Assembly (NCBI GenBank): GCA_951230915.1 | Contig: OX579639.1 | Coordinates: forward strand, 8,866,001-8,930,000 | Reading direction: 5' to 3' | Source of the DNA: Antitrichia curtipendula | Taxonomy: Eukaryota; Streptophyta; Bryopsida; Hypnales; Leucodontaceae | DNA length: 64,000 nucleotides | Part shown: positions 2,016 through 63,000 of the stretch, in pieces | Numbering within the stretch: the first letter of the stretch is position 1 | Layout of the letters: every line of letters begins with the position of its first letter | Translations under genes and position numbers: made by a program | The notes under the pieces: model-generated | What the model was told of the DNA's origin: nothing | The model's input: the letters and a program-made list of their open reading frames with translations, nothing else | Databases searched by the model: none

Positions 2016-3292
2016 CTATGATAAGTTAGACCCTTTTAAACTCCACAAGTGTTCTATCAGATCTCCCCTCAAGTCAAAATGTGTGTCCACATTTTCTATT
2101 TCAAGTGTGCCAGATACTAGCTCTCCAAATGCCAAATCTCTATGCATAGGCACTACATCACTTTCTAAATCCCTAATAATATCCTCCAAGCCTTCAACAC
2201 CTTCTTCATCTTCAAGGATCATGTTGTGTAAAATGCAGCATGTGAACATGATGTCTGAAATGATCTCCATACTCCAATGCCGGCTGAGATTCTAGATAAT
2301 TGCAAAACGAGCTTGGAGAACACCAAAGCATTGTTCTACATCTTTTCGAATTGCCTCCTGTCTCATGGCAATGTGAGCTTTCTTCTCATCCAGGGGCAAA
2401 TGAAAGCAAGACCAACGAGGGTAGATACCATCAATCAATAAATAGTAACGGTTGTATTGACAACCGTTAACCACAAAGGTCATGTCCCAAGCCGCATTTG
2501 TCAATAAATTTTGGATAAGTGGAGAACGATCTAAACAATGAGATTGTTGTTTGAACTCAAGAGTCCAAAATGCCAAATATGCAAGCCTCCATCTGCAATG
2601 GCCTCCAAGATAATGGAACAGTTCCCGTCCCTATCCCCAAAATCCCCCTGCCACGCAATTAGACAGTTTTTCCAATCGTAATGCATACAGTCTAAAGATG
2701 CAAATATACTTGGAAAACCACGGGCACTGTTGATAGCCAATTGTTTCTCCAAATCAGCACATGTTGGTTGCCGGAGATGGTAACCTTCGAATTCACCACG
2801 AAGAGTAATACAAAACCACTTCAGTAACTCCATAGCAGTGCTTTCACTAGTCCTGCAGTACTTGTCTATGGCATCCGCACAAAGCCTATAACACAACATA
2901 CGCAACGCAAAGGTGATCTTCTGGTGTGGAGAAAAGCCCAATGTACCAGTGCAATCCTTCTTCTGTACGAAGTAGTCATCACGTGTGCACACCTTCTCTA
3001 TAATATGCACTAATAAAGAATGTTGCATGCGGAAGCATCGCCGGAAGAGGGACGGTCTGTAAACAAGTGCATCAACAAAGTAATCTTGCATCGTACGTTC
3101 ATGCATGACATGCCTAAATCTCTCAATGTTTGGGCCTCTACCTAGACGGGAACCACCCCACACACGAGGCACAATGGGTTCATTGTCCTCAAACCCGAAG
3201 CCTTGCACAAAGTTTAACATTGCTTCATCTTCCAAATTATCTTCTCTCATTTGATCTCTAGCAGCAAGAAGTCGGGCCCTCCATTTGTCCAT
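2016..3292 (-). pseudogene. PIF/Harbinger transposase, broken
   Basis: This is the remains of a DDE_Tnp_4 (PIF/Harbinger) nuclease. The best start is the ATG at 3292 (MDKWRARLL); the frame is open further upstream but without a convincing ATG. The catalytic blocks appear in order: FASLDCMHYDWKNC (first Asp), YYLLIDGIYPRW (second Asp) and KDVEQCFGVLQARF (Glu). The C-terminal CCILHNMILEDE block follows. Two lesions inactivate it. A frameshift lies at about 2531-2576, between the IWH motif and LDRSPL. A TAG at 2292-2294 falls just after the FGVLQARF block in the same frame. About 425 codons in total is normal for the family. No MYB/SANT-like partner gene is visible. A possible terminal motif (GAGCATCTCCAAT on the - strand) lies near 3665-3680, but I found no partner. 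Confidence 0.9.
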
Positions 3293-3679
3293 GGTCAATA
3301 GAGGCAAAAAAATCCAAACAAAACCTCTAAAGATAACTCCCAAACAAGAAAAAGAAGCAAGATCTACAATCAAGCTTCCAAAACTAACCTTCAAAAGAGC
3401 TCGCAGTTTCGGCAAACCTCTCCCTTCAATCCAAAACTGCTCAGGTTTTTTGGAGGTGCCCGATGCGCTGGCTCAACAATGCTGCCCAATAGTGCCCGAC
3501 TTTCTCCAAATTAATTCTCAATCTCAATTTCCGAAAAACGCTGACAATCTGGCCGATGACATGCCTTGCAGGCGGGTGCTGCTACGGTTCCGACAACGCG
3601 CCGACCCCTTTGGCCCGTCTGAGCACGGTCTCCAGCAGTCTGGCACGTCCATCTAACATGGATTATTGGAGATGCTCTT

Positions 3680-13082: not shown

Positions 13083-15307
13083 ATGAGGCCCCCTACTAGG
13101 AGAGTATGGCAACATTTGCATACCAATGTGAATGTACCCAAGAGGCTAAGGAGTGGGCCAGTTGCAAAGGAACCAAGGAATGCTCCTACAGTGGAACAAC
13201 TTGAAAGTGATCCAAGACTTGAACCTAGAATAATCAAAAAGAGAACACAAAAAAAGAGGGGTCAGTGGTCAGAAGGTGACATGCAATTAGCACTTGAAGC
13301 AATTGCAACTAAAGAGATGTCAATAAGGCAAGCTGGAGAATATTATGGGATACCACCCTCTAGCATTCAAGATTGGAAGAAAGGAAAGACAATTTCTAAA
13401 ATAGTAGGCCATCAAACCTATCTATCAAAAGAAGAAGAATTGGCACTAGTCCAATGGTGATTTTCTATGCAACAAGTAGCTTTGTGTGTTACTTTGAATA
13501 TGCTAAAGTTCACTATCAAAAGTATCTTGGAAAATTCACCAAGAAAGCATCCCTTCAAAGAAGGAGTTCCTGGAGCTAAATGGTGGGCTCTATTCAAGCA
13601 AAGGCGTCCAGAAATCTGCCTAAGGTGTGCAGATGGATTGGAGGTTAGAAGAGCTCTTGGGTTCACAAAGAAAACAACATCAGCCTTCTACAACCTTCTA
13701 CAGCAAGTATATAGAGCCCAAGATTACCACCCTAGTCACATGGAATTCAGATGAAACATGGGTGAGTGCAGGGGACGGAAATTCAACTATCAAAGTGGTT
13801 GCCAAAAAAGGCAGCAAAGCAGTTAGGTTTACCTGTGCAGACAATAGGGAATGGATGTCTATCATGACATGTGTGAATGCTGCTGGTTGTCATATCCCAA
13901 ACCTGTACATCTTCAAGAGAAAAACCAGACCACAAATTGATTATATTAGAAATTGTGAAGCAGGTGCAGCAATGACATTCCAAGAAAATGGATACATGAC
14001 TTCTGAAATCTTCCTGGAATGGTTATGTCATTTCAAAAACAGTGTTCCAGGTGGAATGTCTAAAGAGAACAAGCATTTGTTGATATTGGATGGGCATGCA
14101 AGCCATGTTACTAATGAGGCTATCAAGTTTGGAAGAGAGAATGGATTGGACATTCTTACCCTTCCTTCTCATTGCTCCCATGAGCTTCAACCACTAGATG
14201 TGGCAGTCTTCCATCCATTCAAGCTGAACTTGGCTGTGGAGAAAATGACAAAGATGAGAAATAATCCACAGTGGGCACAAGGAGCTACAATGAAGTCTAT
14301 GCTTGCTGAGATGTCTTCAAGAGCTTTAATAAAAGCTCTTAAACCAGACAATATTAAATCTGGATTTGCAACTACAGGAATATTTCCTATTGACATTACA
14401 GCTATGGATTCAAAATTAGGTCCTGATATTGTACATGAAGGAGAGAGGACACTAGAAGGGGAACAAAATGCCCAAGCTAACCATGCTATGCTATGCCTAT
14501 CACCCATACCTAACCTATTCCCAGAGCTAGATGTGCCGATACCTGACCTCTTCCCTCAAGGCGTAGTTGATGAAACTCCCGATGAAATCATCGAATCCCT
14601 TTCTCAACTGTCCTTGGCAGCTGAATTAGACCCTATTCACGTAGCAATCAATTATCCAAGGTCAGGCTGCCTAAACTTTTATGACATGAACATAATTTCA
14701 ATAATGCAATGTACATTTCTTTATAACAATTGTTTCAATTACTTCAATTATGTAACAACTCACACATGTTTATATGTTCAGCTCCAACCAAGATGAAGTT
14801 GAGGAAGATGCAATTGACCTAAATGATGACATTCCAGTTGAATACCAAGGATGGAATTTTGGCAACATAGAAGAGGAAGAATATGGATCAATCATACCTT
14901 CAACAAGAGTTCTTTGTAATGAGCTGGTACAATCCACACCAAATATTGCTTCCATACCACATGTTGCTGATCCTATAGTTGCTGCACCAATTCAGAGACC
15001 ATGTGAGATTCTTGAGCAAAGCAGAGCAACACTTTCACAAATCCTTGCAATTCCAAAATTTATTTCTACCAAAGCAAGGAGGAAAACTACTGCTTTGTAC
15101 AGTCACAATAGGCTTATTACAAGTGAATCATTTGCAGCTGAAATCAAAGAAAAGGAATACAGAGAAGCTACATTGAAACTAGCCCTTGAGGAGAAAAGAA
15201 GGGCAAAGCAAGAAGAATCATATAGAAAGAAGCAAGAAAAAGAAGGGAAACAGATTGACAACATGGTCAAAAAATGGATAAAACAGATGCAGAAGAAGGC
15301 TGATTGA
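13083..15307 (+). pseudogene. pogo/Tigger-like DDE_1 transposase, broken
   Basis: The N-terminal part (13083-13460) carries a pipsqueak-type helix-turn-helix, RGQWSEGDMQLALEAI through IPPSSIQDWKKG. Two lesions follow. An in-frame TGA at 13458-13460 interrupts ALVQW/FSMQQV. A one-base insertion near 13740 separates FYNLLQQVY...HPSH from WNSDETW. The catalytic triad survives: SDETW (Asp codon 13750), LILDGHASH (Asp codon 14089) and LQPLDVAVF (Asp codon 14197), so the last spacing is about DD36D. A predicted intron at 14661-14781 (AG|GTCAGG to TTCAG|C) joins this frame to a charged, probably coiled-coil C-terminus ending at 15307. An upstream exon near 12722-12975 is possible. Confidence 0.9.
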
Positions 15308-16850: not shown

Positions 16851-18523
16851 TCTACCTTAACCATAGGATCTTGTGTTAAACTAGTTTGAGAAGTTGCAGA
16901 AAAAAATTTCAGAAATTTTCACCTTGTGGATTGCATGATAATAGCATTTGAATTGACAAAAATCCTTTTTTTGTTCCTGCGAAAATCCGGGCAGCTGCAC
17001 TTCACAAAGTCACATTTGTATGAAAAAATGTACAAAATAGCGGTTACTCTTTGGGTTCATTCTTCAAGGCAAGTTTGATACACGCTTAAAAAATTTCAGA
17101 TCATTTGGAATTGTAAAACATGTAGGAAAAAAATAGTAAGTGTAAAGAGGTAGAGAATGTTCAAAACACTAAATTGTTAAGAATTTCAATATGAAAATGA
17201 AAATGCCAATCCCAACGGTTGTAATGTTATAATAAACAATCTACACCCAATATTTTTATTTTTATTTTCAAAATTACTGAAAATTAAGTTAAACAAAAGA
17301 CTTCAAAGTTTATTTTAGAGTAGAGATTCCATAACTACCCTCAAACTAAAACTCCTCATAACTTTCAACTCATTAATCCAAATGGAATGATTCAAAGCTT
17401 TCCACATATATATAAATCTAAAGAACCAATTTCAAGTTTTTATTTTAAAAAAAAGTGATTTTTAAAGAATTTTTTTCAGCTGCCCGGGCAGCCCGCCGAC
17501 CAATGAAAATGACATATCATGCAATAACTTTTTAACCACAAAGTTTAAAGTTATGAAAATTGTTGGGCCGTAAATTTTACTCCTCGGGCACATCTTGTGT
17601 GAAAATTTCAAAGAAAAAAATTAAAAATTCCAGACGTAGTGAGCTGCCCAAAATTGCTATGTTGTCAAAAAATAGTGTTTGATCCTTTAGGGGTTAAACT
17701 AGTATAGGAATGTGCAAAAGAAATTTCACAAACTTTGACCATGTAGATTGCGACCTCCCCGAGGTAGATTGCAATATATTTGCGTTTAAAGTGAAGGAAA
17801 GAAGTTTTTTTGCGCTTGGGTCAACTACATTTTTGGGCTTTGAGTTTTAATAATTTATTATTTTTACTCTACCAATTTTGAATTTTGAATTTTGAATTAT
17901 AAGAAATTGAGTTGAAAATCTTAGGAAAAAAATTCAAGAGAAAAACACTTAGTTTTCACTCATTAAAAAATTGTTAAGTAGAAATAGGTTTAAGATTGAA
18001 GGAAAATCTAAATTGTTAATAGCTACAAGATGGAATTGAAATACACTTATCTCAACAGTGAGATTGTACTAGCAAGAGATTTTAACCTTGTGAAACTTTT
18101 TTTTTTTTGAAATTGTAAAAATTGAAGTCAGAAATGAATTCCATAAGTTATTTTTTCAAGAAGATGCTCTAATTGCCCGAAAAACAAGATTGTCCATAAC
18201 TTTCACATAGCAAATCCAAATGGAGTGAATCAAAGCTTCCCACATACATAAAAATATAATATATAGAAAAATTAATTAATTATTTTTTGTACATTAAGTA
18301 TTTTTGAAGTTTTTTTCTACCCGCCAAACTTAAAAGAGGATTTTTTGTGCCATAACTTTTGCTCCTGGGCTCCAATTGAAATAAAAATTATACTTTCTGA
18401 AAGCTAATGTGTTTTTCTATCTTCCCCAAATAATTCAAAAAATGACAACAAATATTGAGACGATAGGAGCTTGTCCAAAATCCATGTTGTCCCTCCAAGG
18501 GACACTAGGATTCTAGGGGTTAA

Positions 18524-18690
18524 TGCCCTTGCATTTGAAATATTTTTTGAATTGGGCAATGCATTCAATTTATCTTTCATAGCCATATAATGCATTTTCA
18601 GGTTCAATTTTTTTGGTCCAAAGACTAGAGCTCATGCTGCACATAATTGATCCACCAAATCCCCCCCCCCCAAAAAAAAAAATCATCATT
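18524..18690. repeat. Dispersed repeat D, right part
   Basis: Continues the repeat interrupted after 12405. It begins TGCCCTTGCATTTGAAATA, which matches the reverse complement of about 25100-25130. Confidence 0.7.
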
Positions 18691-19189: not shown

Positions 19190-19744
19190 TTAACCCCTAA
19201 ACGACGCCAGAGCCATTTTGTGGCGTTTGGATGAAGAATCGGGGCTCTGGACGAGAAATGGTGAGGAATTTTCATTATTTTTTTGTATGAGCATGTAGTA
19301 TGTTGGGTTGGGAACACGTTGGACTTGTCAGGACAGCCGTGGAACAATTTTTGGCGAGCTGGTATTCATTAGGGTAATAAAACCGGTATGGGACCCTTGT
19401 ACGCAGAGGGCAGACACCCTGACCGAATAAGCATCTGAGGAGGATCAAAATTTTTGGGCAGCACTAATAGAAGCTGCCCGTCACTGCCAAGTTCGTTGAA
19501 ATGTTTAAAATTTTTGTTATGGGCATACTGCCATGTCATCATTCGGGCAGTCCTGGTGGTGGGAAAGGGCTGTTGTCCGTTTCAGCAAAGTTTTCAACAG
19601 AACAACGAGCCAAATGGAGGAAAAAAAAAATTTACCCTCATAACTGCTGCAGCCGGCACTATCAATAATCAAAGAACTAGAATAGGCATTTGAAGAGGAA
19701 AAACTGGCGGCTTAGGGATTCACACATTCAAGGACGTCAAGAAC

Positions 19745-20644
19745 ATGGGTAGAAGTGAGGAAGCACAAACATCAATAGAATTTGCCAAAGTGTGGAGAGA
19801 TTGCATTCCAGTATACAAGTTTACAATTGTACTAGCAACAATGCCGAAACGCAGCACAAAGAGACAGTTCAATCACCTTCCCTATCCTCGTCCATCTCCA
19901 AGCTGGTGTGATAGGGAGGCTGGAGTGATCACAACACATCTACTTACAGCTCAGAGGGCAAGAAAGTGGCAAGTTCAGTACATGCTATCAATGTTAGATG
20001 AAGATTACTTGATGAGCCTCCCTAAACTAGAGAAAGACAAGAGTGCAGCATTCAATTTTGATAGATCACTTGAGAACTTGCGTTGGCTGTGGTGTTCTTG
20101 GGGATCCGAAGTGCTAGGTTGGGCAACTGAGAGGGGTGAGGGTCATCAGCGTGGCTTCTCCAAGGAAGTTTACAGCGCATTGAAAGAGACAGTATTTCCT
20201 TTTCCTAAAATAGAGCATGACGTCCATCACGGAATTGAAAATGCAAGCGCGGTCAGGTGGTCTGTACAGCAGCAAGCACAGAACGCTGGAAGATCAGGGA
20301 ACATCAGGAAAAGAGATTACCAGAAAATTGAGGGCGCCTCCGATGCCAAGCCGTCCTCCGTCCTTGTGCAGAAGTCGCGATCCAGTGGTGGCAACAAACC
20401 AGGAGCAGGCGCTTCTTCAAGCAAACGCCGATCCGTCCCTGTGGAGGAGTGCGGATCCACTGTCGGCGGCACAGCAAGAGCATCTGCTGGTTCCGACAGC
20501 GCCTCTGCCGATGCTGCAGGAGCGGTCCGTGACTGGAGTGAAGGGCGCAGCAAGGATGATGAGCGCAGCGCTGCAACAACTGGGGTCATCGTCAGCACGC
20601 GTCGCCAGCGCGGAAAATCACCTTGCGCCAAAGCAAACACATGA
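19745..20644 (+). CDS. Uncharacterised ORF upstream of the piggyBac transposase
   Basis: A 299-codon open frame; a second plausible start is the ATG at 19841 (MPKRSTKRQFNHL). I do not recognise the product. The first half (to about residue 170) is mixed and protein-like, with aromatic-rich stretches such as LRWLWCSWGSEVLGWA. The second half is Ser/Ala/Gly/Arg-rich, low-complexity and made of decayed repeats. From 20217 it overlaps another open frame. It could be a separate accessory protein, or an exon spliced to the transposase. Confidence 0.45.
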   Translation: MGRSEEAQTSIEFAKVWRDCIPVYKFTIVLATMPKRSTKRQFNHLPYPRPSPSWCDREAGVITTHLLTAQRARKWQVQYMLSMLDEDYLMSLPKLEKDKSAAFNFDRSLENLRWLWCSWGSEVLGWATERGEGHQRGFSKEVYSALKETVFPFPKIEHDVHHGIENASAVRWSVQQQAQNAGRSGNIRKRDYQKIEGASDAKPSSVLVQKSRSSGGNKPGAGASSSKRRSVPVEECGSTVGGTARASAGSDSASADAAGAVRDWSEGRSKDDERSAATTGVIVSTRRQRGKSPCAKANT

Positions 20645-21335
20645 GGTGAGACTCAGAACTACTGAAAACCCTGCACACAGTAGCTTAGTGAGTCCCGAGG
20701 TCGTCTCTGTGCAAAGAGAACTGCTTAGTGACGACTTAGAAGACGGACATGAAGACATTGAACACTCCAGCCAAGCACATCTACTTGGAGAAAGAGTGGA
20801 CCGTAGAACCAAACACAAGTATCTGAAACTCCGATTTGCTAATGGGGACGTCCAAGAAGTGTGTGCTGGGGCTGTACATAGACCCCTGCAATGTCGCTCG
20901 CACCTGCTCCAGACTTCTTCTTCTCAAGATGCATGCAACGAAAGACAGAGAAGCAGTACCCTAGGGAAATTTGTAAGAGAAGAGGGTGCACCTGAACCAG
21001 CTTACGATGGTCACCCTTCTTCCGCGGACGACTTCTTCAGCAACGAAGAGGAGCACTGCAGCAATGATTCTTCGACCTCCAAAGACTCAGACCTTGAGAT
21101 CCGGCAGGGCTTACGGGCAATGCCGTCTCCCTGCGAGACTAGTAGCAGCGTTGAAGTTGAGTCTGACGAAACGCTCTCGCAGGGAGACTATGAGGCGGCA
21201 GGTAGGCCGCGCGCTTCTGTGCAAACTGAGGAAGACTGTGTATTTGCGTGGGGGGCGCGGAAGAAGGCAGCTGAGACGCGGCGTCCTCAAACTCGGCGAA
21301 CCAGCTGGTCGGAAAGGGAGAAGGAGCGACTCTGA
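20217..21335 (+). CDS. Acidic N-terminal-type ORF preceding the transposase
   Basis: A 372-codon frame overlapping the ORF before it (+1 relation) and the transposase frame after it. The first third is low-complexity. The middle contains RRTKHKYLKLRFANGDVQEV, which looks like a folded segment. The last third is acidic and Ser-rich (DDFFSNEEEHCSND; SVEVESDETLSQGDYE), as is typical of piggyBac transposase N-termini. The simplest reading is that this is the true N-terminal region, joined to the catalytic frame by an intron or split by a frameshift near 21300. Confidence 0.5.
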   Translation: MTSITELKMQARSGGLYSSKHRTLEDQGTSGKEITRKLRAPPMPSRPPSLCRSRDPVVATNQEQALLQANADPSLWRSADPLSAAQQEHLLVPTAPLPMLQERSVTGVKGAARMMSAALQQLGSSSARVASAENHLAPKQTHEVRLRTTENPAHSSLVSPEVVSVQRELLSDDLEDGHEDIEHSSQAHLLGERVDRRTKHKYLKLRFANGDVQEVCAGAVHRPLQCRSHLLQTSSSQDACNERQRSSTLGKFVREEGAPEPAYDGHPSSADDFFSNEEEHCSNDSSTSKDSDLEIRQGLRAMPSPCETSSSVEVESDETLSQGDYEAAGRPRASVQTEEDCVFAWGARKKAAETRRPQTRRTSWSEREKERL

Positions 21336-23322
21336 AATCGACTCAGAAGCACGGACTCAAGGAAGGGGCCGGGGAAAGAGGAAGTGCCCGTCCTCACCCC
21401 AGCATATTATGCGCGCTGAGGCGGGACCAGACAGCCAGTTTGCTAGGGCTTTTGATGAGGCGGGACCGAGCAGCCAGTTCGCCAGGGCTTCTGATGAGGC
21501 GGGACCAAGCATGCCGTTCGCCATGAATTCCGATGGGCTCAACGGCTACAGCACACAGCCTCCCGAGAATGACAGTAGCAGTGGCTCTTCATCTGACTCG
21601 TGGTATAAAGGCGCACAACAGACGGGATCACGGAGAAGATTGCCGAAATCACAGGCCGGTTCTGCGAGCAGATCCAATGCAGGGACTCGTCAGAAGAGGA
21701 AACCAAAAGTACCAGATCCCCTTCTCATTCGCTTTGGCCTTGAAACATGGAAACCAGATTTGCCACATTACAAAAACAGTACTTTACCTTTCACAGGGGC
21801 CATTCCTGGTTGTACTCATCCTTATGGTCGTCTTCCATCAGTGATGGGGTTATTCCAAAAGTTCTGGTCAGAGAAATTGCAACGCAGGATTGTGAGAGAA
21901 ACAAACCTATATGCATCTGAAGTAATTCATAAGGACGGACGGACACGGGGTGGTTTGGATTGGATTCCTTTGGATCTTCAAGAGTTTCGAGCATACCTTA
22001 GCATATCTCTATACATGGGAATAAAAAAAGTACCAAACCGGAGATTGTATTGGTCCAAGGGGGAGGACTTGTTCCATTGCCATGTCATTTCTCAAATCTT
22101 GAAAAGGGATAGGTTTGAAAACATTACACGTTGTCTACATGTGGCAATAGCACCGGAGGATGTGCAGGATCGAAAGAGTCCAACATATGACAAATTACAC
22201 AAAGTCCGTTGGTTGGTGGACGATGTCTGTGATCGATTCAAAAGCATGTGGTCACCTAATCAACAACTCACTGTCGATGAGAGTATGGTAATGTACAAAG
22301 GGAAGTACTCCCCCATACGACAATACATGCCGAACAAACCCGTTCGCTTTGGCCTGAAGGTGTGGGCAGCTGCTGATGCATTGTCAAAGTATGTGTGGAA
22401 TTTCGATATCTACTGCGGGAAGCTAGGCAATCCACATGATGAAGGCTCTGAAGGCGATGATAGCGATGATGAAGCAAACTTTATAGAACAATTTCCATCA
22501 CGAAGTGGAAAAGGCGAGGGACTTCAAGGTCGACATGTTGTTAAACATTTATTGAAGGATTTGGGTGGTAAAGGGCACATTGTCACTACGGATAACTTTT
22601 TTACCTCTGTTCCATTGTTTCTCGATTTACTTGAGGAAGGCATAATGGCAACGGGGACTTTGAGAGCGAATAGGAAATATGTCCCCCGGTCTTTGTATGC
22701 CAAGGAAGTAACAAAAAAAAAAGATTATGGTTGGATAGACTACCGCATGCACGAAGAGGGGAACATATGTTGTGCGGTGTGGAAGGATAAGAACGCCGTG
22801 GTGCTTCTGTCAACGCATGCAGAAGCTATGTCACCACCAGGAAGTAGACAATTTGTATATCGAAAAATACATGGCAAGAAAAAGAAAGTTCGAACAGGCC
22901 CGATGCACTTGCAATACACGGAGAACATGAGGGGGGTAGATACATCAGATCAACTACGAGGCGTTTATTCATGTTTGACAAAAAGCCACAAGTGGTGGCA
23001 TAGACTTTTTTTCTACTTACTGGATACCACCGTCTGCAATGCATGGATAATTCATAGTGATATTAGTTTCAGATTCATGGAGGAGCCCATGACTCACTTG
23101 TCGTTTCAGATGCAGTTGGCGAAGGATCTCACAGCGAAATGGGGTGGCCGGACTCAAGGATTCTCCAAACTATCACCCCATGTTGCATCAGCACACGGCA
23201 TCAAGAGTATGGGCAACAAAAGAGCGAATTGTGTTGTATGTGGGAGGCGTACGAATCAAGCGTGCCCCGGTTGCCAACAACATGTGTGCAAGGGTGCATG
23301 CTACTGGGGATGTCATTGGTGA
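20986..23322 (+). CDS. piggyBac transposase (DDE_Tnp_1_7), intact catalytic domain
   Basis: The enzyme would excise and insert the element at TTAA sites. The frame is open for 778 codons but begins with GTG; the first in-frame ATG is 21007, and another, MRAEAGPDS, is at 21409. The first 250 residues are basic or low-complexity and may be partly non-coding. A 13-residue unit, EAGPxxxFAxxxD, is repeated three times at about residues 144-182. The catalytic region starts near FGLETWKPDLP. The aspartates are present at about D431 (TVDESMVMYKGKYS), D536 (VTTDNFFTS) and D652/D655 (MRGVDTSDQLRGVYS). The C-terminus is a Cys-rich zinc-binding domain, CVVCGRRTNQACPGC...CKGACYWGCH. No stop or frameshift interrupts the core, so it looks functional. 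Confidence 0.93.
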   Translation: MHLNQLTMVTLLPRTTSSATKRSTAAMILRPPKTQTLRSGRAYGQCRLPARLVAALKLSLTKRSRRETMRRQVGRALLCKLRKTVYLRGGRGRRQLRRGVLKLGEPAGRKGRRSDSEIDSEARTQGRGRGKRKCPSSPQHIMRAEAGPDSQFARAFDEAGPSSQFARASDEAGPSMPFAMNSDGLNGYSTQPPENDSSSGSSSDSWYKGAQQTGSRRRLPKSQAGSASRSNAGTRQKRKPKVPDPLLIRFGLETWKPDLPHYKNSTLPFTGAIPGCTHPYGRLPSVMGLFQKFWSEKLQRRIVRETNLYASEVIHKDGRTRGGLDWIPLDLQEFRAYLSISLYMGIKKVPNRRLYWSKGEDLFHCHVISQILKRDRFENITRCLHVAIAPEDVQDRKSPTYDKLHKVRWLVDDVCDRFKSMWSPNQQLTVDESMVMYKGKYSPIRQYMPNKPVRFGLKVWAAADALSKYVWNFDIYCGKLGNPHDEGSEGDDSDDEANFIEQFPSRSGKGEGLQGRHVVKHLLKDLGGKGHIVTTDNFFTSVPLFLDLLEEGIMATGTLRANRKYVPRSLYAKEVTKKKDYGWIDYRMHEEGNICCAVWKDKNAVVLLSTHAEAMSPPGSRQFVYRKIHGKKKKVRTGPMHLQYTENMRGVDTSDQLRGVYSCLTKSHKWWHRLFFYLLDTTVCNAWIIHSDISFRFMEEPMTHLSFQMQLAKDLTAKWGGRTQGFSKLSPHVASAHGIKSMGNKRANCVVCGRRTNQACPGCQQHVCKGACYWGCHW
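21418..21534 (+). repeat. 39-bp coding tandem repeat, three units
   Basis: Three consecutive 39-bp units starting around GAGGCGGGACCA encode EAGPDSQFARAFD, EAGPSSQFARASD and EAGPSMPFAMNSD in the transposase frame. The third is diverged. Confidence 0.85.
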
Positions 23323-24346
23323 AATGAAATGTCAATGTTTTGTATATATGTTTTATATGTTGTTGAAAAAGCAGAATATATATAAGAAAAATTAGTACTT
23401 CTAGTGTTTTTAGGATTTTGTAGTTCTCTTAGTCCCCGGGAAAGCATTGCCTATGAGGTGCAAAGCCTGTATAGAGTTTGGGGACAACCTCTCTAAGAAG
23501 AAGCAAAAGTGCTTGCCATTTTGAAGTCAGCCGAACCTCCACAGGGAGTGTCTTGGGCTGGTCGAAGAGAGACAGCAGTCCCAACCTTAGGAAACATAGG
23601 GCGGCAGTTGGAAGCGCCTAGGGGGGGCGCGTGTCAATCCTCAGCGAGTCCAACGTGGAGGTACGTTCGGGCAGGGCAGAAGCTAGCGGGTGCGCAGGAC
23701 GAGGCGGGCCACCTTCCATCAGCTGACCGGCCCCGAATTTCTGGCGGAGCCGCGGCTTGACCTCACTGCCCGCGACAGGGACGCGTCCAGCTGCTGCAGC
23801 GATCCAACAAGCGTGGAAGTCTAATTCCATTTTGTCTCATTCGTGTGCATGACGTCTGGACTCCATCACTGATGCACTGGGATGATCGGGGAACAGCAAG
23901 AGAAGTCAGAATCCCACGTCTTTGAACTTTTTTTTTCTTTTTTCTTTTACCTTAGCGAATCAATATCAAGCTCTGCGCTGCTCAATTTCTGGTACACCTG
24001 GTCGATCTTGTCTCATGTGCGGATTGCTTTGCTTGTCATCTTATGAATTGCTGGTTCTCTGGTTCCGTGCCAATCAACCACAAAAAAAAATTTGGATTCT
24101 TTCAGACCTGCCCCCATGAGAACGAGCTCATACCTCCTCACAAATCACGCCACGAAATCAGTATGCGACGTCTTTTCGCAGATGTTTTCTACTTTTCGGG
24201 ATCTCCAGAGACATGATCTTCAAACCCCACTCCGTTTTCTGCTCACGGTGGACATCTGCAGCCCAAGCATTAGATTCTCTGAAAACACGCGGTTGTAGGT
24301 CGACTTCCCAGTTCCTGTCCACGGGGACCCGCTCGTCGTTTAAGGG
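23323..24346 (+). other. 3' non-coding part of the piggyBac element
   Basis: About 1 kb between the transposase stop and the right TIR. The first 100 bases are AT-rich (probable 3' UTR). Next comes a GC-rich block at 23560-23780 with short open frames of no recognisable product, then ordinary sequence up to the TIR at 24334-24346. Confidence 0.6.
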
Positions 24347-24424
24347 TTAAGAAACTCACACAGATGAGGTGAAAACAACCAAAAACGTCAAAAATAAACA
24401 ATCCAGCATAAGGTAGTAGGTTCA

Positions 24425-24999: not shown

Positions 25000-25560
25000 G
25001 GATTTGTTGGATCGATTATGTGCATCATGAACTCCAGTCTTTGGACAAAAAGACTGAAATAACGCATTATATGGCTATGAAATATAAATTGAATGCATTA
25101 CCCAATTCAACAAATATTTCAAATGCAAGGACATTAAGATGTAACAATGATCCATATTGCAACCTATTTTTCTCTCTACAATGGCTAATGCTATTCCATG
25201 CTCTCAATTCCAAAAAAAGATTCAAATATCGTGAAAATCATCACCATTTGCATGTTTGTCAAATTCTATACATGTCAATTTCCTTCAACTTTTATGTACA
25301 ACAATTTGAAATGATGTATACCAACATGCTAAGGTACAAAAACTAAGAAAAATTGGCAAAAGATAAAATAATTCCAAATCATGTTGAACAAAACTAAGTT
25401 TTTGACATGGCTAACTTTGAAATCGATTTTCTTTCAAATCACAACTAATTTTTTCTTCAAACTTCCATAGTGGTGTGTAGTATATTGCACACTATAACTT
25501 TCATATATCTACTTTTAAACTTTGTCCATTGATACTTATAGTATGGTTGTTTGAATGAAA
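25000..25560 (-). repeat. Dispersed repeat D, uninterrupted copy (empty site)
   Basis: Reverse-orientation relative of 11930-12405 plus 18524-18690. At about 25120-25150 it reads through CATTAAGATG where the other copy carries the TTAA-C1 insertion, so it records the pre-insertion state. An open frame inside it has no recognisable product. Confidence 0.75.
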
Positions 25561-25776
25561 ATGTTTCAACTTTGTACTCAATTTCATCAGTGATTCTAGC
25601 TATGTTGGGATAGTTTCAAAAAAAAAAAAAATTCTTCTAACTTCAAGTCCTATTATCTTGCAATCAATGAAGTCAAAATTATTGAAATTTTTTCTACATA
25701 TTCCAAATGTTTGTCTCTAATTTTTCACTATTCAATTTTTTTTTTAAAATTTCGTCATTGCATAGAAAAATGACTA

Positions 25777-26348
25777 CACTGAAATTGGTAAATAGTGTTG
25801 GGTGATAATTAGTGTTGTTTCCTGTTTTTTACCCCCAACACTATTTTCCAACTTGTGTGAAAATAGTGTAAGGGCACTACTCCCGCAGTCAAATTTTGAC
25901 CCTTTCCTAGGAAACTCTAACATTAAATGTTTTTTTAGAGGTGTGGAGGGCCGTTTTGGGCCTATTCCTGGCGTTGTTCCTCCAACAATAAAAGAACGGC
26001 TGCTGTCAAAAGTTTTTAAGAAAAAAAAATTAAATTAAATTAAATTAAAAAACAAGATGAACAAAAAAAAATTATTTTTATATGACGTGGCAATCCCTCT
26101 GTTACGTCATGCAGCTGTTGCGGCGCAGTTCCAGACAGTTCCAAAGTCTGGAAACCCTGGGGAACTTGCAACCTTCTACATGGGTTGAAAAACATGTAAT
26201 CTTTCTGCTTTCCGTCATAAAATTTTGTACTATAGAGCTAAAATAGTGTTAGAATGGGTAAATAATGTTCAAACATTGACCTTGCAAATCACAATTAGTA
26301 TTATTAATGACAATTAGTGTTATCAACACTATTTACCAATTTCAGTGG
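25777..26348. mobile_element. TIR element related to the 4.8-kb hairpin element
   Basis: About 572 bp with inverted ends CACTGAAATTGGTAAATAGT, flanked by TA on the left (25775-25776) and, after one extra G, on the right (26349-26350). It shares the terminal TAGTGTTG, the subterminal AGTGTT/AACACT repeats and an internal TTTTTACCCCC with the elements at 4765 and 35792, but has a different core and no large central hairpin. Confidence 0.8.
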
Positions 26349-26499
26349 TAGCATATTTATAATTCACTTAACTCCATTGCATTGTAAGGTGATTTAGAAT
26401 AATTTAGACTTTATATTTTCTTCTAAGATTTTTTTAAGTGAACCTAATAACATATACTTATAAATGGACAAAAAATCTCATGTTCATGTAGAGCAAAAG

Positions 26500-26791
26500 T
26501 TTTACTCCAAATGATCCAAATGAGCACAAAGTTTGCTAACCCTATTTCACAGGATTGGAAAAAAGTTTTTTTTTCTCACTTCAAATGCTATAATCTTTCA
26601 ATCCACACGGTGAAAAGGGCTGAAATTTTTTTTCCACACTTCGGTAAAACACTTTACTTTAGTTTTGTACGGTTGAAGTTCCAGAAGAAAAAAAATTGAT
26701 TTTCTTTTTTGAATAACATACCCCAAAGTCGCAGTTTTTGACAATGTCTCCCTGGACCCCCACCCCCACCCACCGGTCCTTTAGGGGTTAA
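26500..26791 (-). mobile_element. Truncated TTAA element (subfamily B-like)
   Basis: The right side ends GGTCCTTTAGGGG then TTAA at 26788-26791, the standard terminus. The adjoining 230 bp matches the terminal region of the B copies (CAATCCACACGGTGAAAA; TTCAAATGCTATAATCTTTC). No opposite end is seen, so it is a fragment. Confidence 0.65.
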
Positions 26792-37019: not shown

Positions 37020-40000
37020 CTACATGCAGAAATGAAACCTCTTTTTCTCACAATCCTCCCCAGAGCCCACGGCTGCAAGATCGCCGCAGATACTCTTCGG
37101 AAAGAGGTACCGGAAGGCGAAGCTGTACGGCGCCACCGAGAACGGCGACGTGGGGTTCCATATCCGCCGCCGGTGTCGTTGCTGGACGCACTCGTAGATG
37201 ACGGTGACTTGGGAGACCGGGAGGAAGCGGCACACCCACTCCAGCACGGCGTCGTCGTCCACGAACTCGCGGGCGTAGTTGTACACCAGCTTGGGCAGGA
37301 GCACGCGGGACTTGGAGGTGAGGCCCACGGTGGCTCGCAAGTAGTCTTGGAAGGCTCTGTCGAGCTCGTCGTGGATGTGCTCCGGGGTGTAGAGGCGCAC
37401 CATGGGCGACGAGTGGCCGCCGCAGGACAGCGCGAAGTTCACTAAGGGCTCAGGTCTCTCGATGCCGAACTTGATTTGCTCCTCCGTCAGCTTCTTGTTA
37501 TGGAGGGCCATGATCAAGGCCTGGGGACACAATTGGGCAAGCAGAAACGTCAGCTGTGATACACAACGGAGTCTCAATCTGTGAAACACATCTTCATGCC
37601 ACACAGGGGACCCATTCCCCCGAGCCAAATCTGTACACAAAAGTTTAACAGGGGACTCATTTCCAAACCAAGTCTGTCCACGAACTTCAACAGGTGACAA
37701 CTCTTCAGGTTTGTGGAGTGATGTTGAGGTTTAGGGGTTTACAATTTAGGCTCGGTGACAGATGTTAAGGATCGTGGGGGGGATGTGAGAGTTGCAGTGA
37801 ATTGCAAGGAATCCACAGGGAGACCCTGATGGTACTGCAAATGCAATTCTGATGTTCATCCATACTCTTTTGCATTGCACCCCTCTTCTGTATACACAAA
37901 AAGATGGTCTAACTGACTCGATGCCAAGAGCAGAAAGTACAGAAAAAGTTATTACACATAATACCAAGTTCTTTGTTCAATACAGCACATTTATGAATGC
38001 ACTTTCTGGCTCATCAAAGGGCTTACATTGAACATTACATGATGAATTATAGCCTTTTCCTTCTCAATCGAAAGAAACGTGGCACATCTGTATTGACTAC
38101 ATTATGGGGGACTAGGTGGAAAGCTGTAATGCATTTTCCATAGAAACTTGTTCAATCTTTCATTTTCAATCTCCAATAAACTGGGTTGAAGTAATTCATT
38201 GAAAGCGATAACCAAAGGACTGGAACAGGGGTGGGGGAAGGAGGAAAGGGCCCGTCCGCGCACAACTGTGACTCTACAGGACTTCCTACCAGAATATAAA
38301 ATGGGCATGCAGGACTTACAAATTGCGGCCGGTGTAACATGATCTTGGCCTTCAGAAGATTGCACTCGATGGCTGCAGCATTGAACCAGTGTCCTCCAAC
38401 GCAATAAGCTGCCTTTTGCATCAGCGTGAAGAACTTGAGGTCGCTTCTTGGGATTCCGTAGGCAAGGAAAGCCTGACAACGACAGTCCAAGACGACGGAC
38501 ATTGTTAACATTCCAGTGCTGCAAATTTTGCTTCAAAGCAGGAAACCAATAATAACCAGAACCAGAGCCAGAATAATAATAATAATAATAATAATTCTTA
38601 AAAGAATTGCAAATGCGCTTACATGCATAAGAAGGGCATTGTAGAGATTAATCCAAAACGCCATCTTCTCCTCGTGAGTCATTACTGAGGGGTCGACTTT
38701 AGCCAGACGCTCCACCAATAACCTGCACCCAAAGTCCTACAACTATTAGCGATCCAGCTCACGGGTTTCATTCAGCTACAGCATATACAACATTCTTTAG
38801 CCATGTACACTCAGCACTCTGATCACTGTTACTGGAGAATTATTTTTGAAAATGACATTACATGATATCCATCCAATACCAAAACTAATGGAACCTATTA
38901 TCATCTTGGCTAACACCATTAACGAAACGCTGTGGGTTTAAACTCCTCTTACGTCCTCAAAATAAAAGGAACCAGAATCCCGATAAGACTTGTGAAATTC
39001 AGAATGTTGTCACATTCTAACATTCTACAGTCCATTTGACACTCACCCTTACAGTTATACCAACCCCCAATCCTATTTTTTTTTCTCTAATATCTTCTGA
39101 TCACAAACAAAGATGGGAAAGAATCTAATGAATGATACCATTCAAAGTTTGCTAAGTCCCTTCTGGGGTAGTTCAACCAGAAAACTGAAATCGAGTTCAC
39201 TTCAAGGATGAACCACAGAACATGTACTCGAACACATTAGCTCATACTTCTTGTCACAATTACATGACCTCAAACCATACTCCAATCCAGTTCCCATTCA
39301 CCACATGATGGAACGAAACGAGACTATTCTTGTTCAAGATTTAGTCGCAAAACCACAAAAAAACGCCGAAAATCGCCAAGACAATGCGCCACACTCCAGT
39401 TGACTTTTATCACAAGCACATCACTTCAAACCATACTCCAATCCAGTTCCCATCCAACAATGAGACCATTCTTGTTCAAGAATCATAAATTCCAGCTGAC
39501 TCTTATCACAAGCATCCCCCTCCAAAACGCACTCCAATCCAGTTCCCATTGAGAGTTTCACCCCGTTAGCTAAGGAACGAAACGAGACTATTTTAGTTCA
39601 AGACTTGGGACACGAAAACCAAGACAAAAACTCACCGAAACTTGCCGAGACTATGCGCCACATACTCCAGCTGATTCTTCCCGACCGATAACCACGGCAC
39701 CTCCTCCGCATCCGTATACGGTCCAATGTTCGCCCAGGCCAGTCTCCCCATGGCCTTATACGGATCCCTCGTCGTCTCTCCCCCCATGACCTCCCCATAC
39801 ACCCCAGGATTCAGCTGCGGACTCCTCGCACCCACCGGCAACGACGACGACAAGGACGGCGACGAATCCGAATGAGAACTCGACAAGGACGACGACGTCG
39901 ACAGACGCCCCGTGTGCGACGACGGCGACAAAGGACACTCCTGGGAAGCTCGCGACTCGGACGAGCTCGGCTCCGCCAAGTGACAGAAGATGTCCACCAT

Positions 40001-43000
40001 ACAGGAAACCATCTCCTCCGAGACGCGGTTGGGGTTGGAAGGAAGAAGAAGAACGGGTTCCGTGCAGCCCACGGAGACGGAGCTCGGGCGAGGAGAGTCC
40101 TGGTTGAAGGAGGATTTGCGAGGAGAGGTCAGGGTGGAGACGTCGTGGGAAGACGAAGAAAGGGATTGGTCTTGGCGTTTCATGCCGCGGCTGCGTCGGA
40201 GCTTGCGCATGCGTACGTCGTCCGTGAAATCCTGGTGGGAAGGAATGCACGAGAAAGAAAGGTTAGATGCTTGGGCAGAATTGGCAAGAGAAGAGAGGTT
40301 TGATGGGTTCAGAGTGAAACTCCAGTAGCAATCTGAATGCTGGACCCTCCAATGCTAGGGAATGCACCTTGGAAAATGCGAACCCTAAAACCTCAAAGTC
40401 GGGAAGATGGCGAAATTTCAAGAAATTGGCAGGTTGCAGGCAGGCCCCTGCTGTCTGGGACCAGCAAAGATGTGTAGGCCGACAAGTATTTTACTGCCCT
40501 TCAGAAAGTTTATCGCGGAATTTCTTCAATCGCTCGCCCGAGTCGCGAGCTTCCCAGGATTTGAAGATTCTTCAAGGATCGGGCAATTATACTGAACTGT
40601 TGCGCATCCCGAAGAGCACTTTGAAAAATGCGAACCCTAAAACGCCGATTTCGCGAAGATGGCGAAATTACAAGAGATTGGCATTTTCGGAGGCAATGTC
40701 TAGGACAACAAAGCTGTCTATGTCGACATGTATTTTACTGTGATTTATCAAGTTAATCATCGAGCGAAATTGAAGATTCTTCAAAGATTGGGCGCTACTG
40801 AATTATTGCGGATCCCGTAGTGCCCTTTGAAAAATGCAAACCCTTAAACGTCAATTCGTGAAGATGACGAATTTCGAAGATGGCATTTTGCAGGCCCCTG
40901 TCCAGGACCAACTAAGCTGTCTAGGCCAACAAGTTTAACATTGCCATTTAGTATCATAATTGTGCAATACTGGCTTTAAGGAACTAAGAATCGGGGTGGG
41001 CCAACTGAGTGTAGCATTTCTTCCTCTGTTAAAACCTTTCAAACCGACCCGAGGATGGAGGTTGCGGTCAAAAATGGGAAGAACGGTACCTCCTCGAGGA
41101 TGGAGGAACAGTCGAGTTGTTCCGGGGCATGGCTGCTCTGGAGCTCCACTTCCGGAATCGGATTCGCAGACCGGTTGTTGGGTGAGGCCGCGTCGTCCAC
41201 ATTCGAGGAGGAGAAGTTCCAGAACGCGAGGCGCTTGGTGGAAACGAGCAACCGCGCAGGGTTCAACAGTTTCAGACTTGGCGATGATGAATCGCAGGGT
41301 TGTTGGCACGCCGCTGCAGGCGTCACGGGCGTGGTGGTGCACGGGGGCTCGCCGGGAGTAAAAGGAGACGACAACGGCGGGGGCAAATTGGATGGCGTAA
41401 CCACGGGTGCTGACGACGGGAAACACGTCGTCGCATCGGGAGACGAATGCTGGTGAACCCGCGCACGATCCTTCGAGTTCAGCTGCAGGACAAAACCGTG
41501 AGCATGCGAATCACAACAAGCAGCTGTGAAGCGAGAGGCTCTATCCCTTCAGTACTAAAAAAGTGGAACAAGGAAACCGGAACGGTGATTAAGGAATAGT
41601 TCTCTTTTCATTTTATTTTTCTTTAGAGCGTCTCGGTTTTCATGTAAGGTAGCTACTCAAACTTCTTCATGTAGCTTCAGTTGATGCAAAGCCTCCTCAC
41701 CTAAGGTCCAGTGTCAACAAAGGACTGCAAGACACTCGTGGGGTTCATAGAAGTCACTTGCATAATTGGACAAACCTTGTCATGTGGCGCATTCACATTC
41801 TTTCAATGACGGACTCTTCCACAGTTGACAGTTCTCACTCAACTCAAGAAGATAAATAATGGTTTTCAGCTGATCTTCATGCTTTGCGATTGCAGATTCA
41901 TCTTCATGCTACCAATTGCGGGTTCCACATTTCTTAAATCAATAAACTTTGGTCGACTGAAAACTCTTGCCCAGGAAGCTTTGTACTGAGGAGTATGAAA
42001 CCGACTAGTGGCGGAGACTTCTCTACGTCTAATTGAGAGAAGATAGGATTTCGAAGCAGTTACTACTATGGCATCTTCCTAATGATTCTGCCATTCCGAT
42101 GCTGAAAGCATTTCACTCAAGGATGTACATATTTTGCTTCCTGAATTCAACTTCGCAACCCACAGCAGAACGACATTCAAAGTACCAATAAATCTTGAGT
42201 TCCATCCTCTTGATCCTCCCCTTCCAATGTTGGAATCACTCAACGTTTCGGACACGATATCTCTCGGAAATGACCATGAAACCCGAGATTCGGCTCACGC
42301 ATACCTTATTCAAAATGGGCGGCAGGGTCGTTTGCTGCGGCTGCTGTCCATCCAGCGCGGTCCATAACACCCGCAAGCTCTGTCGCGGCGACTTGGGCGA
42401 CCCCCTCGGCGACTTGGGCGGCGTGCAAAACTCAAACTGCTGCTGCGTCCCCTCGGGCTCGGGTGCCGCCGTGTGCAGCAGCTCCTTGAGCGTCGCGAGC
42501 GTCGGCGATTTAGCCTTGTTGTTCCCTGGCGACAGCGACGCCGTGCGCACCTTTGGCAACCTGAGAGGCGATGCAGGCGCCAGTTTCGGAGACGCAGGCA
42601 CAAGCCTGCTTGCCAACTGGGGTGACAGTGTACGCGACGACAACAATATAGGCCTCGCCACGGGCAAAGTGTGCTCGATCGCCTCGCGCTCCGTCCGCTC
42701 GTGTACAATGTCCCATTGAAGCGCAGACGCCTGCGTCTCTAACCGCAGCACTGTGGCCTCCAGCATTGCGATGTCGGTAAGCAGCCGCTGCACATTGCTG
42801 GGCAGGTCGTGCAGCACGGATTCGGGAAGCTGAGCAGTGCTGGGCGCGTGCGCGAGGGCGCTTTGTAATCTGCTGTGGAGCTCGACCTCGTTCTCGAGCT
42901 GCTGGTGCAACTCCACCACCTGGGAAGCACAAACAAGGAGCCCATGGGTGAGCACGACTGCCGATGCAATTCGAACCAAACCCAAAATACCCAAAAAAAT

Positions 43001-60099: not shown

Positions 60100-63000
60100 T
60101 GAAATGGTAAAAGTTCATAAAGCAATCACTATTAACTAATAACTCCATCACCATTATCCAAGGCATGAAAATTGTCCACTAACCAACCTAACGGAGTCCT
60201 AATCTCATTTATTAAAAAAAGTCTATCATGGGTTGATGTAAGATTGTAATGGATCATTCTTATATATTTGCATTGTCTAGTTTGCATGTCATAGGCTGGT
60301 TGAAAGAACATGGTTAGTAAAGGCTTAATAGTTAGTAAGCTATGAGCATACTTCTTTTGTTCTAGGAACAATTTTGGCCCAAAGACCAAGGTAAACTACA
60401 TCTAAATGCATTTGAATGATCAATTGGTGATAGTGTTCTTCTTAATAGATTGACTCAAGTTTTTGTTTGTCCTTGTTGGAAGGCAAAAGAGTACTCTACA
60501 CTTATTTTTTAAACATTTGATAGACATCATACGAGTAAAATATAAATGAATTTTTGAAATTGGTAAAAATAGACATACATGAAAATGATCCTAGATTCTC
60601 ATGAATAGAAGAAGTACATTATAGGCAAGAATTTGTAGAGAACAACTTAAGAATAGGGCAACAATTAGATGTAGTTGCTTTAGCAATTACAACATTCTTG
60701 AAAATGTTGAAAATGAAGGAAAGTCTCATTTTTCAATAGTGAAACTAATTTTAACATCGAACTTGAACTTTTGGGTTGCTATTAGTTTGACAACAAGTCA
60801 TAGCTACTCCTAAAATGTAGATTCTCCTAGCCCACATAGAAAAATAAACATTTTAGAAGTTGGCTAAAACAAATCCAATTTAGGAAAACTTAAATTTTAA
60901 TTTTCAATTCCAATTCCACATGAAACTTCACTATGACCACCTTTCTCCATGGATTTATTCCATTAATCCCTAATTGCCCGAGGCACCAAATTTGGGTGTC
61001 GACAATATTTTGAAGTTAAATATGATCCAATTAGTTTATATTTTTAACAAATTCTTTTTGAAGTCTAGTTTTAGCATAAAAAATACGAGTTTGAAAATGA
61101 ATGATTATGATTTTTCTATTCAAGATTTTGTGCAAGGATGTCCATTGCAATCTTGACTTTCTGTAGTATTGGAGGCTCTTGGAAATGAGCCTCAAATACA
61201 CTAGATCTTGGAGAAAAAATCACATTAAAAATTTAATTAAGAAAATTGTAGAGTAGATTTTGAAAAGCCATAAATTGATTGGGGTTATAAATGTTAGGCC
61301 CTTCAACCTCAAGTTCTTTTGGTGACCAATTTTTTAGATTTGACATGCAAAAAGAAAGCAAAAAGATTTTTATAGTATTAACACCCTCATGATCAAACAT
61401 TCTAATCTTTCAATCCTTAAATAATATATTCTTTCTTTTCTTTTTCCATGTGATCTCTAACATGTCTAGTTTGAATTTGTACAATTAAAATTTCAAAAAA
61501 ATTGATAGAACTTATTAAAATGTTGGCGTTTTGTTCAATTCAGAGCAAATTCCAAGAAGCTCAAAATAGGCCTTGGGCATTTAGGGGTTAATGAAAGTAC
61601 AAAATTAGTGTCATCTACAAAATGATGGTATTAGAGCACAAAGTTTTGGGGTGAAGATAAATACACTATAAGTAGTAATATCCTACCTCACTATCTCCAA
61701 TTAGTCTAACCCTTAAACGTTGAGACGGACGTTTTGCAGCCGATGAATGATAAGAGAATCTTTTGTGTAAGACAAAAGTGCAACTATTCATCCTTCAAAT
61801 TTTGTGGGATGAATGAAAGATCATCTATAGTAGTTTGACTTCCAATGAGTGCTTTTGCATTATTTTAATCCAACAATACAAACGGTGTCAAAATATATGA
61901 TTTCTACGGTTATGAGCCTATCGTTTAAGGGTAAAAATAGTGTGACCGACTTTTATCAAATTGACACACAAGTAGGATAAATTAATCATTGTAGTGCTGG
62001 GATTTCAGGAAATGTCAAGAAAATAGATTCTAATAACCTAAATACAAGCAACCGAATAGCCTAGGTCTATATTTAAAAATATATATATTATTATGGTTTT
62101 TAGTTTGGGGCTAGTATTTATGAAGTTTATCCAGGGAATCGTCTGCGGCTCCCTTTATTTACACCGGCTTTAGTGGACAACTCATTCCACCTCAACGACA
62201 ACGATTCGCCCACGTTGCTGACGTTGATCTCAAGCAGTTTTTAATTTTTAAAACTTTAAAATTTATTTCAGCCAGTGTAGAAAGTGATAATCACAGGAAG
62301 GATGAAGCTATTTACATCCACAGAAAATGGATGAAACTTGTAGTCTTTGGATGAAATTTCAGTAGATGTATCCAAAACAATGTACATTCATCCCAAATTG
62401 AGCGATATTGTCCTAAGGTATTAGCTATTTCATCCAATGAAAAGCAAGAAATATTTTGCCCTGTAAAAAATAAAAAAATGAGTTCTCAACAAAATTTTGC
62501 TAAATCCCTCTCCTAACTCAAAGGCCTCTTTTAATTCCACCCCCTTTCTTTAACTCCTAAAAGACCAAGAAGCCCACTTTGGGCTTTTTAAGAATTCGGG
62601 CAAGCTCTAATGACTTCGTGATTTGGAATGAGTGCATGAATTTGTTTTAGATGGATGCTTCTCATTATAATCTACTTGTGAAGCTTTGTTTCATGTCATT
62701 CCAATAAATGTTGCAAAAGTTATAAGTTTTTTTTTAGTGTCAAACCAAGCAATAAAAATTATTTATTCTAAAAGAATATTAATTATTATTTTTTGAAATT
62801 GTTTAGATTGATATCTACTCAAAAAATATGAACCATTGATTTCCAAATAACAAGGTAAAAGTTATGAGGAGTTTTATGTTGCAGGCAATAAAAATAGAAA
62901 AACATATAAAGTTGTCTTTTGTTTTTAATTTTCAAAATTTTCAAATAAAAATATAGGATGTTGATTGTTCACTGAAACATTCTTACCATTGGGATTAACA

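Follow-up and report, generated by a model that had tools for sequence, protein, structure and literature searches.

The 64-kb stretch of Antitrichia curtipendula DNA analysed here (the window, G000:C7:8866001-8930000) contains a structurally complete member of the piggyBac superfamily in the nuclear genome of a land plant, a moss. In a reading that we hold with confidence, this is a full-length moss piggyBac, one of two copies, likely non-autonomous, and standing within a large multi-lineage population of which other members have been recently mobile. The superfamily is mainly known from animals and has provided a major tool for genome engineering. The assembly amounts to 400 Mb and consists of 303 contigs, and the contig that holds the window (C7) measures 26 Mb.

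Ends, limits and target site of the element

The element extends over positions 19190 to 24350 on the plus strand and has 5,161 bp including both TTAA. Its left end (19190..19206, plus strand) reads TTAA followed by CCCCTAAACGACG, and its right end (24334..24350, minus strand) reads, on the other strand, TTAA followed by CCCTTAAACGACG, the two 13-bp terminal inverted repeats (TIRs) being identical at 12 of their 13 bases. Short TIRs starting with CC(C/Y) are characteristic of the piggyBac superfamily. A first-pass annotation of the same DNA had proposed a single unit of about 5.15 kb, with TTAA on both sides and 13-bp TIRs carrying one mismatch; this description was confirmed in all its parts, and the limits at 19190 and 24350 proved exact to the base. 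TTAA flanked both ends not only in the window element but also in its second copy, described below, and in three elements of another family (L079, L080 and L081).

The 17-base end motif, searched with up to one mismatch, occurred at 2,329 places in the genome as compared with 7 for the reversed control, showing that its presence is not due to chance. An empty paralogous site was not found in the genome, where the 400 bp to the left of the element occur a single time. Rfam and tRNA scans of the 64-kb window gave no matches. A 77-nt inverted repeat was observed on either side of the element, at positions 18520-18596 and 25061-25137.

The transposase core

The transposase core is encoded by ORF3 (20977..23322, plus strand), open over 781 codons from stop to stop, whose first ATG in the frame used by the second copy lies at 21409 and predicts a protein of 637 aa. 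ORF3 matched the Pfam domain DDE_Tnp_1_7 (PF13843) with an E value of 3.5e-81 (273.7 bits, cut-off 22.4) over 21844..23046 of the plus strand, and the solved chains of piggyBat and piggyBac with E values of 1.7e-25 and 4.6e-25, respectively. The codons of the catalytic Asp triad start at 22276, 22591 and 22939. When 11 sequences were aligned, the second and third Asp were invariant and the first was present in 10 of the 11 rows, the protein P0111 being the only row with a gap there, and the window copy had all three. Alignment with relatives also delimited a Cys/His-rich C-terminal domain (23230..23319, plus strand), in which the 11 rows agreed throughout at four Cys positions and one His position. 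The uninterrupted transposase core with all its aspartates and a Cys-rich end, as first annotated, was thus found again in the open core frame, the triad and the cysteines, but the N-terminal part of the protein turned out to be out of frame with the core. That the coding region extends beyond the core and is broken, that an ORF1 precedes it and that the host is a moss had escaped the first-pass annotation.

The piggyBac of T. ni (PDB 6x67) and the bat piggyBat (PDB 9c0f) have in common with the window element the TTAA sites, short TIRs starting with CCC, the DDE_Tnp_1_7 core, the DDD triad and the Cys-rich C-terminus. In contrast, the moss coding region is longer (1022 codons in the frame of the second copy versus 594 and 578 residues in the two PDB chains), and the moss element is set apart by an N-terminal extension, an extra ORF upstream (ORF1) and its moss host.

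The second copy and the split transposase frame

Full-length matches to each of the 300-bp ends were found at two places in the genome only, the window and G000:C2:5420399-5425528 (hereafter C2), which has the same ends; the left end gave 11 additional partial matches. The identity between the two copies was 97.64% over 5,169 columns according to BLAST, while the MAFFT alignment had 67 differences in 5,120 aligned bases (K2P 1.3%, about 98.7% identity). With only two copies, 1.3% apart, the window family showed no sign of very recent movement. An excerpt of PMC4054914 applies a rate of 1% per million years, for divergence from the consensus, to moss Tc1 elements, and at that rate the divergence between the window copy and C2 would correspond to roughly 0.7 to 1.3 million years.

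The N-terminal part of the long transposase is contained in ORF2 (20217..21335, plus strand), in a frame different from those of ORF1 and ORF3, and includes a segment (20688-20891, plus strand) that comparison with relatives showed to be conserved. In the C2 copy, this segment and the whole core up to its end are read in one frame of 1,022 codons, whereas in the window copy a one-base length difference relative to C2 (21243..21245, plus strand) shifts ORF2 and ORF3 into different frames. C2 also differs by a 9-bp insertion, by one changed base in the left TIR and by being 39 bp shorter in a tandem repeat of 39 bp (13 codons), present in three copies at 21417..21533 (plus strand) of the window.

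Besides C2, six other paralogs (L003 to L008) were read for frame. In L003, with one stop, and in L004, with stops, the N-terminal segment and the core stayed in a single frame; L005 and L007 read across the equivalent of 21243-21245, their frames changing upstream in L005 and just downstream in L007; L006 changed frame near the same place as the window copy, and L008 gave no clear frame. As judged from these alignments, frame breaks are common in the window family and C2 is its only clean uninterrupted reference. The N-terminal segment and the core also stand in one stop-free frame in two distant families, represented by L048 and L079, and in an environmental protein (P0005). The dN/dS ratio between the window copy and C2 was 0.38-0.48 in the core, from 14 to 19 changes, and 1.45 in ORF2, where it derives from 6 changes, so that this pair gives no evidence of selection on the N-terminal part.

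Since the long gene, as predicted, is split by a frameshift, the window copy is most likely unable to provide the complete transposase by itself, and the comparison of frames suggests that it is structurally complete but probably not autonomous, an argument carried by the intact frames of C2, L048 and L079. The view that this copy is possibly active found no support, given the split of its frame relative to C2 and the lack of near-identical sister copies (K2P 1.3%). A search of the host assembly for further copies with the same TIRs, as suggested by the first-pass annotation, gave the full-length C2 copy and the 2,329 end motifs.

ORF1 and the organisation of the coding region

ORF1 (19841..20644, plus strand) has 267 codons from its ATG and a conserved domain of about 125 residues (approximately 19841-20215) that matched no Pfam family. 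Scoring of all 148 genomic candidates gave 67 matches to the domain. A DDE place lay downstream, on the same strand and within 8 kb, in 23 of the 67, the chance expectation being about 0.0014 per match, and a nearby DDE place in another arrangement was seen in one; the 143 DDE places used here were merged from the transposase and PF13843 searches, each of which scored a fraction of its DDE candidates. The window ORF1 was 23-30% identical to those of L048, L045 and L079, and the transposase was 39% identical to that of L048 and 43% to that of L045. According to these comparisons, ORF1 is conserved upstream of the transposase in several moss piggyBac lineages, and it could possibly be a helper or a DNA-binding protein. 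An accessory ORF beside the transposase ORF is also found in the two-ORF DNA transposons of the PIF/Harbinger superfamily, whose transposase and target site are unrelated to those of the moss element and from whose accessory ORF the moss ORF1 differs in having no Pfam match.

Eleven paralogs near the window copy, chosen from 24 loci, were compared at the junction of ORF1 and the transposase. The best-conserved frame switched from that of ORF1 to the +1 frame (that of ORF2) immediately behind the motif FPFPKIE. In the 42 nt that follow, the mean BLOSUM score was 1.06 in the +1 frame versus 0.43 and -0.57 in the other two, and over 60 nt it was 0.53 versus 0.35 and -0.67, a small difference. For the window family, this conservation speaks for ORFs that overlap or for a programmed shift.

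Two other readings of the coding region have to be weighed against these results. A single spliced gene with ORF1 and the transposase as its exons, instead of overlapping ORFs or a frameshift fusion, is tentatively to be considered, at somewhat less than even probability. In L048, ORF1 and the 1079-codon ORF share the same frame with one stop between them; L045 has a donor-like ATGG/GTAAGC at the end of ORF1 and an acceptor-like CATGCAG/GA about 90 bases further; the window family has a donor-like GAG/GTGAGA at 20646, its GTGAGA being invariant in 4 aligned sequences; and within 60 nt after the motif the ORF2 frame has stops in 2 of the 11 paralogs and the ORF1 frame in none. The conservation of the +1 frame over 42 nt weighs against splicing, as do an ATG just after the motif shared by 10 of the 11 paralogs (the window copy being the exception), the stops in the +1 frame of less closely related loci, for instance L062 and L064, and the lack, beyond the donor, of an acceptor above threshold by weighted scoring in the window, C2 and L079. 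Splicing also bears on the second reading, in which the window copy has full autonomy and may be active. Removal of the stretch containing the length difference by splicing might leave this copy intact, and the sites of L045 indicate that introns are possible in the group; the length difference could also be a one-base assembly error; or the core alone might be enough, because its frame is open and has the catalytic residues, and a protein of 637 aa limited to the core could be produced and might be functional. We consider full autonomy improbable, however, because C2, L003, L004, L005 and L007 run through the broken position without a change of frame (L005 and L007 are broken elsewhere) and the window family consists of two copies without a sign of very recent movement. 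Moreover, T. ni piggyBac transposes less once its N-terminal region is removed, the effect being mainly on excision, as stated in an excerpt of PMC9499001, and by analogy the moss element may need this region as well.

The piggyBac population of the moss genome

The transposase search of the genome gave at least 60 matches (58 of 1,107 candidates scored) and the PF13843 search at least 116 (116 of 907 candidates scored), all of them above the cut-off and 72 of the 116 without an internal stop, while none of 14 control genomes matched PF13843. These DDE relatives were present on every contig from C1 to C10 and also on C218. A second type of TTAA-TIR, TTAACCCCWRAAGGACC, occurred at 14,539 places versus 6 in its control; together with the window type this amounts to about 16,900 ends versus 13 in the controls, the two counts possibly overlapping in places. 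The first-pass annotation had regarded intact piggyBac copies in a land plant as rare, which is wrong within this genome, as the numbers of DDE matches and TIR ends show.

Many of the ends belonged to short elements. Among 30 loci with the first TIR type (the first 30 listed, all from C1), 27 matched a 229-bp MITE at the TIR, 24 of the 30 over at least 200 bp, and 3 did not match it. The best 40 of 3,064 candidates in the MITE search were 92-100% identical. The window itself also contains, at 61707..61935 on the minus strand, a 229-bp TTAA MITE whose TIRs are of the element's type and which shares 87% identity with the MITE of L028. We considered whether the 229-bp MITE is a simple deletion product of the window element and discarded it, as the two have little in common beyond the TIR and the terminal 300 bp are found full-length in two copies only, with 11 partial matches for the left end. 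Pieces resembling a 954-bp element of the second type (for example L029:1749-2702) were observed around 25597-26756 of the window. In viral contigs, one stretch matching the pattern was checked and it encodes no relative.

Probable recent transposition of other families

L079 (on C10), L080 (on C2) and L081 (on C6) are copies of a 5,596-bp element that were 99.91-99.96% identical in pairwise comparisons, with perfect 13-bp TIRs, TTAA at their limits and three different flanks. Each one had an open ORF1 of 269 codons and a transposase frame of 1,086 codons. A further pair, L047 and L048, lies on opposite strands of C218 about 47 kb apart; the two shared 99.896% identity across 4,806 bp, each had a frame of 1,079 codons, and they diverged right after the 3' TTAA, the comparison covering the 3' ends and 3' flanks. 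Judging from these near-identities, at least one other moss piggyBac family, and probably two, transposed very recently. Such near-identical copies at different sites, supporting mobility, had not been foreseen by the first-pass annotation. The pair L045/L046 (99.27%) was discarded as evidence of transposition, because the match ends at the limit of the stretch on one side and in a tandem repeat on the other.

Relationships and origin

A tree of 70 rows (9 moss, 14 named animal and 47 environmental), chosen by hand from two transposase searches, grouped all 9 moss rows with 29 of the environmental rows in one set of 38 with a support of 100/100 and without any animal row. Inside this set, four distant moss lineages were interleaved with environmental rows, which points to a long residence. 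The comparison with other piggyBac proteins that had been proposed thus separated the moss rows from the 14 animal rows; the named rows of the tree included no protein from fungi, oomycetes or algae. No named land-plant protein was found among the matches listed (120 of 197).

The host context agreed with a plant nuclear genome. The window contains, on the minus strand, pieces of a plant MIP1-like gene, namely Lzipper-MIP1 (ORF 42239-43045) and DUF547 (ORF 37023-37730), and the assembly includes a moss plastid, recognised by a matK of 515 codons on contig C303. This matK was 95% identical to a cluster of 152 members that bears the name of Campylium stellatum, a pleurocarp, and every named match placed higher than the first non-moss one (P0189, Isoetes) came from a moss, so that the host is a moss and probably a pleurocarpous one. 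Contamination, the point on which the first-pass annotation had made its reading depend, was checked and none was found, considering the 26-Mb contig, the MIP1-like pieces, the DDE relatives on C1 to C10 and C218, and the plastid.

These results bear on two other origins. Domesticated piggyBac genes occur in vertebrates, and the sequence could in principle be such a host gene, or else a contaminant; we give hardly any credence to either, since the TIRs and TTAA are intact, a second copy with the same ends lies elsewhere, and the TIR is common to over two thousand places, in addition to the host context just described. A recent arrival from an animal or another foreign host by horizontal transfer is very unlikely, if a little less so. 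All the organism-named proteins among the matches listed in the two transposase searches were animal, and a fungal origin has been suggested for Mariner elements of P. patens in an excerpt of PMC7466625. Nevertheless, the well-supported set of moss and environmental rows holds none of the 14 animal rows, and the interleaving of the moss lineages within it indicates a long residence instead.

Discussion

The history that we propose would begin with the insertion of the element into a TTAA site by cut-and-paste transposition, with a DDD transposase that cleaves at TTAA and joins the element to a new TTAA site, as known for piggyBac and as we infer here. A later frameshift would have split the long transposase gene of the window copy, which joins the N-terminal region to the core. 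This copy is probably an ageing, non-autonomous member, which could still be moved in trans in view of its intact ends, and it would belong to a very large piggyBac population, made up of several lineages and including thousands of relatives that are not autonomous.

A description of an intact plant piggyBac transposase or element was not found among the records listed by full-text searches, which covered literature mostly outside subscription journals and outside Repbase, and this is a weak sign of novelty. Excerpts of reviews list PiggyBac among the plant superfamilies or the superfamilies of angiosperm MITEs (PMC10794571, PMC10004981), an abstract counts plants among the sources from which piggyBac was isolated (PMC10813416), and a repeat table for a fern, in an excerpt of PMC6890710, gives 122 kb of PiggyBac. 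The word piggyBac did not turn up in what the searches listed for a transposon paper on P. patens and for the Pleurozium genome paper. PpTc1 and PpTc2 of Physcomitrium patens are likewise recently amplified moss DNA transposons but, unlike the moss piggyBac element, they belong to the Tc1/mariner superfamily (excerpts of PMC4054914 and PMC7466625).

More broadly, and with about equal chances of being right or wrong, mosses may have an old, self-contained branch of piggyBac in which ORF1 overlaps a transposase of about 1,000 residues, and which in this species would comprise hundreds of transposase copies and thousands of TTAA MITEs and would still be transposing. The scale, the diversity, the extra ORF and the recent activity of piggyBac in a moss are what make the finding noteworthy. 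The many lineages, together with the added ORF and the near-identical recent insertions, would provide a natural plant system for the study of piggyBac mobility, which would also serve questions on the role of the N-terminal region and on the spread of MITEs.

The piggyBac element was bracketed by a 77-nt inverted repeat, the arms of which (window 18520-18596 and 25061-25137) were 94% complementary. Two other transposase fragments were found in the window, one at 2531-3472 (-), Harbinger-like and matching Pfam Plant_tran (E 5.2e-22), and one at 13624-14796 (+), pogo-like and matching DDE_1 (E 1.8e-22); the next ORF after the latter had 183 codons and no Pfam family.

Elsewhere in the host assembly (G000), the piggyBac copy of locus L046 (G000:C1:3469000-3475500) was adjoined by a tandem repeat of about 145 bp, as judged from match offsets. 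A weak and decayed matK-like match, below the cut-off (E 4.2e-5), was detected in a large contig (G000:C7:2597915-2598178, -), and is perhaps a piece of plastid DNA.

Weak matches (E ~1e-4) to ORF1, the conserved ORF upstream of the piggyBac transposase, were located at G000:C3:36694156, C9:3493027, C6:25647751 and C2:36040379, lying in long open frames of 315-377 codons, and no scored match to the piggyBac transposase or Pfam DDE_Tnp_1_7 was found within 8 kb of them. These ORF1-like matches possibly represent another family carrying the ORF1 domain.
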